Assembly: GCA_017935365.1 (NCBI GenBank)
Contig: JAGBHT010000005.1
Span: 1-64,000, forward strand
DNA length: 64,000 nucleotides
Direction of reading: 5' to 3'
Origin: Ruminiclostridium sp.
Lineage (GTDB): Bacteria; Bacillota; Clostridia; Oscillospirales; Ruminococcaceae
The first letter of the stretch is position 1, and each line of letters begins with the position of its first letter. Both the position numbers and the translations under genes were made by a program. The notes beneath the pieces are model-generated. The model saw only the letters and a program-made list of their open reading frames with translations, was not told the DNA's origin and did not search any database. Positions 27,823-54,008 of the stretch are shown piece by piece.

Positions 27823-27990
27823 GCGGCGGGTCGCCGCTGACAATTCGCCGTTCTGACGGTCGGCGATTTGCGGAGGTTACGTTACCGGCGGGCGGCTGTG
27901 AGCCGCTTCAAATTCGCCGTTCTGAATGTTTGTAATTTGCGGAAGTTGCGTTATCGGCGGGTGACTGAGGTCACACCCTATTGACGTTAA
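27823..27990. repeat. modular palindromic repeat, two tandem units
   Basis: Unit 1 begins directly after the DUF4956 stop with the hairpin GCGGCGGGTCGCCGC, then AATTCGCCGTTCTGACGG and a GTTACCGGCGG end. Unit 2 begins GGCGGCTGTGAGCCGC, repeats the AATTCGCCGTTCTGA core, then GTTGCGTTATCGGCGG and closes with GTGACTGAGGTCAC and CACCCTATTGACGTTAA. The same modules recur in other intergenic regions of this window. Confidence 0.85.
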
Positions 27991-28304: not shown

Positions 28305-28545
28305 AAAGCGATATATTAAAGGCTTTGAAGGGAAAAAGTAGCGTGAAACGTGCTTTCAGAGAGTCGTTGGTCGGTGTGAAACGGCAGACGTTTTAATGTG
28401 AAGATACACCCCGGAGCTGTCCTGTGGGAACGGTGGCTACGTTATAGCTTTTGAGGTTCGTGTGAAATGGTCTAAACGCACGGATAAACTGAGGTGGTAC
28501 CGCGATAATTCGCCCTCTGTGCATTTTTGCACAGAGGGCTTTTTT
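28305..28545 (+). promoter_or_regulatory. T-box leader, predicted tyrosine specific
   Basis: The T-box sequence AGGTGGTACCGCG lies at 28492-28504. It is followed by a terminator, GCCCTCTGTGC / GCACAGAGGGC, with T6 (28512-28545). Stem I features are the AGAGAG motif (about 28361) and the GGTGTGAAAC distal loop. Aligning the 3' side of stem I with the glyQS leader places the specifier at 28405-28407, TAC, a Tyr codon. The TGGT of the T-box pairs with an ACCA tRNA end, as expected for an A discriminator. Uncharged tRNA-Tyr should therefore switch aroF on. Confidence 0.9.
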
Positions 28546-28601: not shown

Positions 28602-29630
28602 ATGAGCATGGATTTACTGGTACGTCTGCCTGATCCGGACGAAATCAAGAAAAAATATCCTGCAAGCGAAAAGGTAAAGGCAATCAAGGCACAGCGCGAC
28701 AAGGAAATAGCCGATGTGTTCACGGGAAAAAGCAACAGGTTCTTACTTATAATAGGACCTTGTTCCGCCGATAAGGAAGAGCCGGTAATAGATTATATTT
28801 CAAGGCTTGTACCTGTGCAGGAGCAGGTAAAGGACAAAATTCTGATCATTCCCAGAATATATACGAATAAGCCCCGTACCACAGGCGAGGGATATAAGGG
28901 CATGATACATCAGCCCGATCCTACAAAGCACGAGGATATGCTTGAGGGACTTATCAAGGTAAGACAGCTTCATCTGCACGCTATCGAGCAGACCGGTTTT
29001 ACCTGTGCAGACGAAATGCTTTACCCCGAAAACGACCGTTATCTGTCTGATTTACTGTCTTATGTTGCGGTCGGCGCACGTTCTGTCGAGGATCAGCAAC
29101 ACAGACTAACAGCAAGCGGACTTGATATCCCTGTCGGAATGAAAAACCCCACAAGCGGAACAATCTCCGTAATGCTGAACTCTATCCGTGCGGCTCAGGC
29201 AAGCCACACGTTTATATACCGTGGCTGGGAAACACACACAAGCGGAAATCCGCTTGCACACGCTATCCTGCGTGGTGCGGTCAATAAGCACGGTCAGACG
29301 ATACCAAACTATCACTATGAGGACCTGTCGCTTCTGTATGAGCTTTACTGCAAGCAGGATCTTCAGAACAAGGCGGTAATTGTTGATACTAATCACTCTA
29401 ATTCGGGTAAGAAGTATCTTGAACAGATAAGAATCGCAAATGAAATTCTTCACAGCCGTCGTCACAGCAAGGATCTTGAGGGATTTGTCAAGGGACTTAT
29501 GATCGAAAGCTACATTGAGGACGGAAACCAGAGTACAGAGGACGCTGTGTACGGAAAGTCAATCACCGATCCCTGTCTTGGCTGGGAAAAGACGGAGAAG
29601 CTTATCTACAGCATAGCCGACCAACTCTAA
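28602..29630 (+). CDS. aroF: 3-deoxy-7-phosphoheptulonate (DAHP) synthase
   Basis: About 342 residues, class I alpha type (AroF/G/H family). It condenses PEP and erythrose 4-phosphate in the first step of aromatic amino acid synthesis. Motifs seen: IIGPCSADKEEPVIDY, PRIYTNKPRTTGEGYKG, VGARSVEDQQHR, GMKNPTSGT and VDTNHSNSGKK. The ribosome binding site is TTGGAGG. Control by a tyrosine-type T-box points to a Tyr-linked isozyme, so I use aroF; the symbol is a best guess. aroE and aroK of the same pathway lie at 43.7-45.1 kb. Confidence 0.93.
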   Translation: MSMDLLVRLPDPDEIKKKYPASEKVKAIKAQRDKEIADVFTGKSNRFLLIIGPCSADKEEPVIDYISRLVPVQEQVKDKILIIPRIYTNKPRTTGEGYKGMIHQPDPTKHEDMLEGLIKVRQLHLHAIEQTGFTCADEMLYPENDRYLSDLLSYVAVGARSVEDQQHRLTASGLDIPVGMKNPTSGTISVMLNSIRAAQASHTFIYRGWETHTSGNPLAHAILRGAVNKHGQTIPNYHYEDLSLLYELYCKQDLQNKAVIVDTNHSNSGKKYLEQIRIANEILHSRRHSKDLEGFVKGLMIESYIEDGNQSTEDAVYGKSITDPCLGWEKTEKLIYSIADQL

Positions 29631-29885
29631 GGCGGCGGTGCCGCCGGACTGTTCCGACCGTTTATAATGTTGCGGATTTTTGTAGGATAGCGGAACGGTC
29701 GGGGTTGGACGTTAGTGCTTTTTGTTTATAATAATACCCGTGGGGCGCGGCAAATTCGCCTTTAAAAAAGGTGGATATAAGCTTAAGTTGCGTTGACGGC
29801 GGGCGGCAATGTGCCGTTTCAAATTCCGACCATTGATGAGGTTGCGAATTTTTGTGGGTGGCGGAACGGTCGGGAATGGACGATA
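29631..29885. repeat. modular repeats after aroF
   Basis: Begins at the base after the aroF stop with the hairpin GGCGGCGGTGCCGCC. Two copies of an inverted-repeat unit follow, CCGACCGTT to AACGGTCGG (29654-29701) and CCGACCATT to AACGGTCGG (29825-29872). Each spans GTTGCGGATTTTTGT or GTTGCGAATTTTTGT. Between them are AAATTCGCC and GTTGCGTTGACGGCGGGCGG, the core modules of the family. Confidence 0.75.
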
Positions 29886-30491
29886 TTGCAGGATCAAAAC
29901 AAGATTTTGCAGAAAGTTTAATATTTTGCAGAAGTTTTGAAAAGCACTATCACACTTGCCTTTTAATGAACGCTTTTTTTGTTTCGCATCCGTGCGAAAC
30001 TCCGGGCGTTCAACTTCGGGCATCCATGCCCGCCCTCGGAAAAGGGTGAGGTTCTGTTGCTCGGTCAAGCTGAGCCAACTATGGTGGGGATTGTAATAGC
30101 TCAGAAGTATTGAAGATAGTACTCCTATTAATTTCAATCCCCACCGTCTTGCAGACAGAAATGTTACCGATATATCAATGTTCAAGATATTGCATAACAA
30201 AGCTGAATTTTAAGATTTACTGCTCGTCTGCAATCCACCTCCCCTTTTTCGAGGGGAGGCAAGTTTAGTGCTTTGCGAGGGATAGAGCGAGGTTGGCGAG
30301 GATTGAGAAAATGGCAATGTAGGGCGCAACGGGAGATTCTATAGAATATTGCAAATGCAAAACCATATAAGCACACACAGCACCGCTACTACTGAAAATC
30401 CTATATGACAGTTCAAGCTCAAAATCGTGCAAGGACACCCGGACATTTGTTTTGAAAATAATTGATCAAATAAACCGAAAGGAAGAAGAAA
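29886..30491. other. long untranslated region before tyrS
   Basis: About 600 bases with no convincing gene. Hairpins seen: TTTCGCA / TGCGAAA at about 29982-29999; CGGGCAT / ATGCCCG at about 30017-30032; an 11-bp inverted repeat GGTGGGGATTG / CAATCCCCACC at 30082-30144; and CCTCCCC / GGGGAGG at about 30227-30247, followed by GTTTAGTGCTTTGCGAGGGA, which has the look of a small decayed repeat element. No T-box motif is present. Confidence 0.4.
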
Positions 30492-31707: not shown

Positions 31708-32193
31708 ATGATAAGTGTAAGAAAAGCGCAGGACAAGGATATAGGACGTGTTACGGAGCTACTCAGTCAGGTGCTTGAGCTTCACGCCGATCTGCGGCCC
31801 GATTTATTCGTACACGGTACGACAAAGTACACTGAAAAGCAGTTGTCGGATATATTCGCCGATGAAAAGACACCTGTATTCGTGGCTGTAGACGACAGCG
31901 ACACGGTGCAGGGCTATGCGTTCTGTGTGTTTAAGGAGCCTGCATTCTCAACGAATATGATGAATGTAAGGACGCTGTATATAGATGACTTATGTGTTGA
32001 CAGCAACGCAAGAGGTCAGCATATCGGAACAACGCTTTTTGACTATGTAATGGATTTTGCAAAGCAGACAGGTTGTTACACAGTTACGCTGAATGTCTGG
32101 GAGGGCAACGACAGCGCCCGTCATTTCTACGAGAAGATGGGAATGTTCGTCCGTGAAACCCAAATGGAGCGGCGGGTGGCGGGTCGCCACTGA
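31708..32193 (+). CDS. GNAT family N-acetyltransferase
   Basis: About 161 residues. The acetyl-CoA site is NARGQHIGTTLFDYV (about residues 108-122), preceded by the beta strand LYIDDLCVD and followed by VTLNVWEGNDSARHFYEKMGM, a normal GNAT arrangement. The substrate is unknown. One base separates it from tyrS. The last eight codons (ERRVAGRH) and the stop lie inside a modular repeat, so its original C-terminus has probably been replaced or extended by the repeat. Confidence 0.85.
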   Translation: MISVRKAQDKDIGRVTELLSQVLELHADLRPDLFVHGTTKYTEKQLSDIFADEKTPVFVAVDDSDTVQGYAFCVFKEPAFSTNMMNVRTLYIDDLCVDSNARGQHIGTTLFDYVMDFAKQTGCYTVTLNVWEGNDSARHFYEKMGMFVRETQMERRVAGRH

Positions 32194-32342
32194 CAATTCG
32201 CCGTTCTGACGGTTGGCGGGTTGCTTAGCTTCCGCTACCGGCGGGCGCCTGCGGTCATTTGTGTCGCTGCGTCCTTGCAGCGACTTTGCGTGACCGCTGT
32301 TAAAGCATCCTTGCTTTACTACGGCGCACCCTTTTAACGTTG
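32170..32342. repeat. modular repeat with nested-hairpin module
   Basis: Begins within the GNAT gene with GGCGGGTCGCCAC, then AATTCGCCGTTCTGACGG and CTACCGGCGGGCGCCTGCGG. An extra module is inserted: stem GCGGTCA (32251-32257) / TGACCGC (32291-32297), enclosing stem GTCGCTGC / GCAGCGAC (32263-32284), then a hairpin AAAGCA / TGCTTT (32302-32317). The element ends GGCGCACCCTTTTAACGTTG, the family's usual end. The module matches the architecture of the accD-accC element. Confidence 0.8.
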
Positions 32343-33489: not shown

Positions 33490-33603
33490 GCATATTGCTG
33501 TTGCCGGTAACGCAAGTTTACGCAAACCGCAAGCCGTCAGAACGGCGAATTTACTGCGGCTTTCAGCCGCACGGCGAATTGTCAGCGGCGACTCGCCGCC
33601 CGC
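33490..33603. repeat. modular repeat after accA
   Basis: On the minus strand it starts right after the accA stop: GGCGGCGAGTCGCCGC, AATTCGCCGT, a GCGGCTGAAAGCCGC hairpin, AATTCGCCGTTCTGACGG, then GTTACCGGCAACAGC. It separates accA from the acpP promoter. Confidence 0.8.
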
Positions 33604-35312: not shown

Positions 35313-35371
35313 TTAAAGCACCGCCTTTATTGCTCAAATCAAATAATAACATTATCTGCCGATAGATTCAA

Positions 35372-35546
35372 GGGTATTGACCCATCCCCCTTGCCCCCTT
35401 CCCCGGAAGGGGGGGGAGAAGATAAGGGGGCTACCGCCCCTCAACCAAGCAGGAAGCTTGCTGTCAGCCGCACAAAGCTGTTGCACGATGCAACAGCACA
35501 AATGGCTGACGACCTGTATGGGGGCTACGCCCCTGCGACCCTATTG
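35372..35546. repeat. palindromic element with nested hairpins between accD and accC
   Basis: Hairpins in order: CCCCCTT / AAGGGGG type around 35386-35418; GGGGCTACCGCCCC (35427-35440); AAGC / GCTT with an AGGAA loop (35447-35459); outer stem GTCAGCC (35463-35469) / GGCTGAC (35504-35510) enclosing GCTGTTGCA / TGCAACAGC (35477-35497); then GGGGGCTACGCCCC (35520-35533). It ends GACCCTATTG, like other family members, and starts near GGGTATTGACCC. No gene is seen in it. Confidence 0.75.
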
Positions 35547-35579
35547 TAGATTATATTTTATCTGCTTTGTAATGTTTTA

Positions 35580-51523: not shown

Positions 51524-51745
51524 TGCCGATGCGGCACGGCAAATTCCGCCTTTGATACAGTTTCTGCTATGCCCGACATAATGAAACAGCGGAATTTAAA
51601 ACGATTAATTATGATTTGAAAGAATCGTTCCTCCCTAAATTGACCTTTCAATTCAGTTAAAGCGGCATATTGCCACCGCCGGTAACGCAACTTACGCAAT
51701 CCGCCAACCGTCAGAACGGCGAATTTGAAGCGACACATTGTCGCA
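51524..51745. repeat. modular repeats after metY
   Basis: Begins five bases past the metY stop with GTGCCGATGCGGCAC and CAAATTCCGCC. A second part in the opposite orientation at about 51660-51745 has GCGGCATATTGCCACCGCC, GGTAACGCAACTTACGC, CCGCCAACCGTCAGAACGGC and GAATTTGAAGCGACACATTG. Same modules as elsewhere in the window. Confidence 0.75.
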
Positions 51746-53909: not shown

Positions 53910-54008
53910 CGTCAATAGGGTGCGCCATAGGCGCCCGCCGGTAACGTAACTGCCGCCAACCGCCAACCGTCAGAACGGCGAATTTGAAGCGGCTCACAGC
54001 CGTCCGCA
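53910..54008. repeat. modular repeat after the fliT-like gene
   Basis: On the minus strand it begins a few bases past the fliT-like stop: GGACGGCTGTGAGCCGC, TTCAAATTCGCCGTTCTGA, GGTTGGCGGTTGGCGG, GTTACGTTACCGGCGGGCGC and GGCGCACCCTATTGACGTTAA. It carries the full set of family modules including the terminal CACCCTATTGACGTTAA. Confidence 0.8.

Follow-up and report, generated by a model that had tools for sequence, protein, structure and literature searches.

The window, a stretch of 64,000 nucleotides from Ruminiclostridium sp., includes the genes accC and accD, which are separated by a gap of 267 nt (35313..35579, − strand). The gap is occupied by a nested-hairpin module, designated alpha type (35447..35512, + strand), and by a degraded carrier element. 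The module opens with hairpin 1 (35447-35459), in which AAGC (35447-35450) pairs with GCTT (35456-35459) around an AGGAA loop. This is followed by an outer stem of GTCAGCC (35463-35469) and GGCTGAC (35504-35510) which extends in full over 35463-35470 and 35503-35510. The joints CACAAA (35471-35476) and ACAAA (35498-35502) connect the outer stem to an inner hairpin (35477-35497) formed by GCTGTTGCA (35477-35485) and TGCAACAGC (35489-35497). The module scored 82.7 bits against a covariance model (E 5e-19 within the window). A sequence-only reading had placed the element at 35440-35546. The module proper lies within these bounds, but positions 35513-35546 are part of the carrier around it.

The same reading had paired this element with the reverse complement of 32251-32317, on the grounds that the order of parts and the single-stranded joints are alike whereas the stems differ. 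Every segment that it named was located in both elements, including the AAGC/GCTT hairpin and the outer and inner stems of the accC-accD copy, and the nested fold with compensated stems is common to the two. The second module, delta type, spans 32248..32316 on the − strand (72.3 bits; direct repeat family D1). It consists of hairpin 1, TAAAGC/GCTTTA with an AAGGAT loop (32318-32301), an outer stem of GCGGTCA (32297-32291) and TGACCGC (32257-32251), the joints CGCAAA (32290-32285) and ACAAA (32262-32258), and an inner stem of GTCGCTGC (32284-32277) and GCAGCGAC (32270-32263). A further GTGCGCC/GGCGC stem encloses this copy. Both proposed members are thus real, and a third exists at 29963-30031 (− strand; 32.1 bits, E 4e-6). 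The third copy is more divergent than the other two, with the stems GAACGC/GCGTTC (outer), GTTTCGC/GCGAAAC (inner) and GGGC/GCCC (hairpin 1). The common plan, read 5′ to 3′, is a first hairpin of the form xxGC-AnGGAY-GCxx, a short spacer, the outer stem, a CACAAA-like joint, an inner hairpin closed by a loop of the A(G/C)GAY type, a CAAA joint and the return of the outer stem. Compared with dinucleotide shuffles, the + and − strand elements folded with z-scores of −4.85 and −3.19, respectively, and none of 200 shuffles folded as well in either case.

Other repeats and structures are present nearby. A separate dispersed family (GGCGGGTCGCC...AATTCGCCGTTCTGACGG...) occurs at 27825-27967, 32178-32251, 33502-33603, 51676-51744 and 53929-54007, and its copy at 32178-32251 is joined to the delta-type module, which it abuts directly at 32251. 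Near the third module, a 44-nt segment (GATTTTTGTAGGATAGCGGAACGGTCGGG...) is repeated within 29675-29889 (− strand) and may be a further mosaic repeat. A T-box leader occupies positions 28316-28520 (109 bits to Rfam RF00230); the ORF downstream of it, at 28602, resembles a DAHP synthase of aromatic amino acid synthesis.

BLAST searches with the element produced 21 matches in its own genome (G000), several of which coincide with breaks in the assembly, at the ends of contigs. The covariance model, which was built from 12 copies, recovered 46 matches in this genome at E<=1, far above chance, and 69 at E<=0.01 in G014, a complete genome of the same genus. Many further members with compensatory changes exist. 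A third genome, G015, has 34 modules. The module was present in 10 of the 25 same-genus genomes searched and absent from 16 genomes of other families. In an order-wide search of 295 genomes, three matched at E<=1e-4, all from the same genus (one of 148 genera); none was found in the other 147 sampled genera. The family is restricted to a single genus of Oscillospiraceae-like gut bacteria. No credible Rfam family was found for the module at gathering or relaxed thresholds, the relaxed matches being rejected because they involved microRNA models from eukaryotes, which fell on a single long palindrome, and a weak human lncRNA model. No description of this hairpin-repeat family was found in the open-access literature. 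Spread by phage or plasmid was rejected, as no plasmid match and no match among viral contigs was obtained. Fourteen GenBank records labeled 'Bacteriophage sp.' from human feces carry the repeats (including MT835480, MT836862 and MT835655). Since pdxS adjoins the repeat in MT835480 and a radical SAM protein gene is the neighbor in MT836862, the two records checked, these entries most likely represent bacterial sequence deposited under a phage label.

The stems of the module are strongly compensated. In a MAFFT alignment of 12 sequences, 98.3% of cells were paired and 11 of the 20 pairs varied on both sides; shifting the partner by a single column abolished the pairing. A larger set comprised 114 distinct full-length copies in 32 groups under 80% identity. 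Its alignment, on which the tree and mismatch tests rest, was fitted to the model and so leans to structure, although the 12-sequence MAFFT alignment agrees with it. On the tree of these copies, 14 of the 20 pairs co-changed beyond a null of random branch placement, and so the covariation exceeds the phylogenetic background. Pairs had a co-change fraction of 0.76, against 0.12 for non-pairs; of 110 co-changes, 103 ended as Watson-Crick pairs. The loops are conserved, with 96-97% of copies retaining GGA in hairpin 1 and GA in the inner loop, as are joint bases that include C35, A38, C73 and A76 of the alignment (92-96%). Many sub-families share the one fold with different stems. Among close copies (<=3 differences), 38 of 40 stem changes (95%) were one-sided, whereas 84% of those between distant pairs were two-sided. 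Thus, single mutations arise freely but only compensated lineages last.

The module is carried by an inverted-repeat element of 176 bp, which lies between duplicated terminator-like hairpins. The ends of this carrier, CAGnnTGTnGAAAAA, number 46 in G000 and 78 in G014, whereas a reversed control pattern of the ends gave 0-1 matches. The carrier resembles a MITE in its terminal inverted repeats, lack of coding capacity and many copies, which include copies of 174-178 bp. Direct repeats of 16-32 bp that are 89-100% identical flank 20 of 23 complete copies (G014 and G000, L176-L246). These flanks are whole terminator-like hairpins; cross-paired flanks scored as high in 0% of cases. The two flanks could form a stem of >=6 bp with each other in 65% of copies, against 1.2% of cross pairs.

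The site preference of the carrier recalls IS1272 of the IS1182 family, an element known to insert at terminator hairpins, which are lost or replaced as a result (PMC4923244, PMC5678879). The carrier likewise targets terminator-like hairpins of unrelated sequence, in keeping with the IS1182/IS1272 mode of insertion into stem-loops without sequence specificity. In contrast to IS1272, which removes or replaces its target without duplication, the carrier duplicates the whole hairpin. This outcome matches the hypothetical 'pathway b' that has been proposed for IS1272-type transposition (PMC5678879). In G015, the remnant of a DUF772 transposase gene (E 2e-19) lies beside CAGCTTGTCGAAAAAGTC, the same terminal repeat as that of the carrier, and an IS1182-like origin of the carrier is therefore likely, although not proven. 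The PF13751 transposase is absent from G000, G014 and G015, and PF05598 is absent from G000; accordingly, an IS1182 transposase was rejected as the mobilizer in the own genome. The comparison with IS1272 concerns the carrier and not the 69-bp module.

Empty and filled carriers could be compared directly. Module-free copies read GCCCCTAGTCC followed by CTGTCGGGGGC, and filled copies hold a module exactly at the point between the two. In the accC-accD gap, the module is bracketed by the carrier hairpins GGGGGCTACCGCCCC (35426-35440) and GGGGGCTACGCCCC (35520-35533), which together span 35426..35533 (+ strand); in module-free copies elsewhere these hairpins are only ~11 nt apart (TAGTCCCTGT). Complete carriers measured 174-178 bp with no module, 240-245 bp with one, 310-314 bp with two and 375 bp with three, which corresponds to steps of ~69 bp. 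Nine relatives were compared at the accC-accD gap: eight have only ~14-47 nt there, and the remaining one has an extra ORF. Thus, by comparison with the 267-nt gap in the window, the accC-accD copy is an insertion of carrier plus module in which the carrier ends have degraded. At another locus (C15:36110), the orthologous positions in G000 and G014 bear different elements and no clean single-module difference was evident.

Modules also are inserted into one another. In ~20 fetched loci, a module resides within the inner hairpin of another module, and reading of these nested contexts gave at least nine distinct host-guest combinations. All nested guests have the orientation of the host and are positioned just 5′ of an apex mini-hairpin, the sequence of which is TTGC-n(4-6)-GCAA or nearly so. 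Chance does not readily account for insertion at hairpin apices in a fixed orientation and position, and such self-nesting would be an unusual natural case of structure-directed DNA insertion. Back-to-back arrays of modules were present at L189, L192 and L044. The L044 array lies outside the window on contig C23 of the own genome (~90860-91660; L044 1488-2242), where it has a period of ~160 nt and directly follows a tRNA-Leu gene. A related array in G014 also follows tRNA-Leu (L189). In the arrays viewed, no gene cassettes of the kind associated with integron attC sites were seen between modules.

Compensatory covariation is routinely read as proof of functional RNA, and the sequence-only reading had taken changing stems with conserved joints as the mark of a selected RNA fold. 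On the strand that is transcribed, G·U pairs are compatible with an RNA fold, whereas A·C pairs are not. Among 2208 paired cells of the module alignment, however, G·T mismatches (24) were on neither strand commoner than A·C mismatches (25), at 1.1% each, and one-sided changes on the tree comprised 13 of each type. In contrast, tRNAs from the same loci showed 12 G·T (10.8%) and no A·C mismatches among 111 pairs, albeit from only five genes; the difference from the modules was significant for G·T versus A·C (Fisher, p 8e-4) and for the G·T fraction (p 4e-8). Modules pointed along incoming transcription in 17 cases and against it in 21, so that their orientation was random in this respect (p 0.63). 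The strong fold, compensated stems and conserved loops would suit a structure transcribed in 3′ UTRs or operon gaps and selected there as a cis-regulatory, mRNA-stabilizing or small RNA. The positions mainly downstream of genes would fit as well (13 convergent, 12 codirectional and 3 divergent contexts, n = 28), but such positions also are expected of insertions that spare promoters. The symmetric mismatches, the missing orientation bias and Rfam match, the occurrence of the copies as insertions, both inside one another and within the inverted-repeat element, and the acc operons of relatives that are devoid of the insert all make a selected RNA unlikely, and leave that claim unsupported. The pairing is under real selection, but this selection looks strand-symmetric, as would suit a DNA hairpin. 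This well-sampled family hence combines strong covariation with strand-symmetric mismatches and the behavior of inserting DNA, and comparison of G·T with A·C offers a cheap way to tell RNA from DNA folds.

The near-total Watson-Crick pairing and the symmetry of G·T and A·C mismatches also would be produced if template switching between the arms of an extruded hairpin corrected imperfect palindromes during replication, giving co-change without selection, and long perfect palindrome variants do exist (L044). That process predicts two-sided changes, yet 38 of the 40 changes between the closest copies were one-sided, and the conserved loops and joints would need another cause; it is disfavored accordingly and is about as improbable as the RNA. 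Less probable still is that modules are not separately mobile but are fixed parts of a larger repeat, with module-free copies arising by deletion at hairpins. Deletions at hairpins are common in general, and the alpha type occupies the same site in many carriers, a recurrence that can reflect copying of the carrier rather than repeated insertion. Nevertheless, module-free carriers of 174-178 bp are numerous in both genomes, uniform in length and intact at the joints; modules also are found in arrays that lie outside the carrier and within host hairpins of several unrelated kinds; and the acc operon of relatives lacks carrier and module together.

Instead, the module is probably a ~69-bp non-autonomous mobile DNA element (probability of roughly two in three), a self-nesting, MITE-like hairpin repeat, specific to a single genus, whose targets are hairpins, those of its own kind among them. 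This reading accommodates the shared fold and its compensation, the presence or absence of modules at otherwise identical sites, the nesting, the arrays and the strand symmetry. The symmetric mismatches, random orientation and the pattern of one-sided and two-sided changes are better explained if copies with a good DNA hairpin are the ones that propagate than if a transcript is under selection, and such propagation would give compensated stems in the absence of an RNA function. The copies that propagate would be those able to form a perfect hairpin from one DNA strand, with GGA and GA loops and CAAA joints. A putative enzyme may recognize the folded single strand or a cruciform by its shape and unpaired bases and insert the module at other hairpins; the accC-accD copy would be one such insertion, now degraded at the ends of the carrier. 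More tentatively, and rather doubtfully, the module may represent a class of hairpin transposon that is recognized almost only by folded single-strand shape and a few unpaired bases, that prefers the hairpin apex of its own kind and builds nested, branched DNA in one orientation, and that is served by a dedicated putative enzyme.

Neither a transposase or recombinase linked to the 69-bp module nor a terminal inverted repeat or clear target duplication of the unit itself was found. Comparable elements are known. BOX elements of Streptococcus (boxA-boxB(n)-boxC) are, in modular behavior, the sole basis of this comparison, similar: they are small repeats of intergenic DNA, limited to a genus and built of hairpin modules that vary in number, and they are mutually inserted and without a transposase gene of their own (PMC3049150). 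However, boxB comprises tandem copies of one sequence (PMC3049150), whereas the modules fall into several sub-families that differ in their stems, and occupy a number of sites as well as one another's hairpins. REP/BIME sequences (GTAG- and CGTC-tagged palindromes associated with RAYT) likewise are short dispersed palindromes, often tandem or mosaic, for which folded DNA is thought to be the substrate, and CGTC REPs also occur without a dedicated transposase; the latter are described from five phyla, Firmicutes not among them (PMC3733652, PMC2817692). The module differs from the single 20-40-bp REP hairpin in its nested, two-level fold of ~69 nt and, unlike RAYT-mobilized REPs, is abundant in a genome, G015, without RAYT. 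Indeed, G015 has no Y1_Tnp at 99% completeness despite its 34 modules, and a RAYT/Y1 transposase was rejected as mobilizer, being uncorrelated with module copy number.

Non-autonomous derivatives of IS200/IS605 insert in an oriented, strand-specific manner and have end hairpins without terminal inverted repeats. The module shares the oriented insertion, the hairpins and the lack of terminal inverted repeats, but no conserved target tetranucleotide was seen. The own genome contains one IS200-type Y1 transposase copy; the ends of local IS200 copies and their hairpins are unrelated to the module, and IS200 was rejected as its mobilizer. In G014, three IS200-type TnpA copies lie ~1 kb or less from carrier terminal repeats (1293604-1296198, 1336186-1337497 and 1622915-1623474), a proximity that may reflect coincidence or insertion of IS200 into the repeats.
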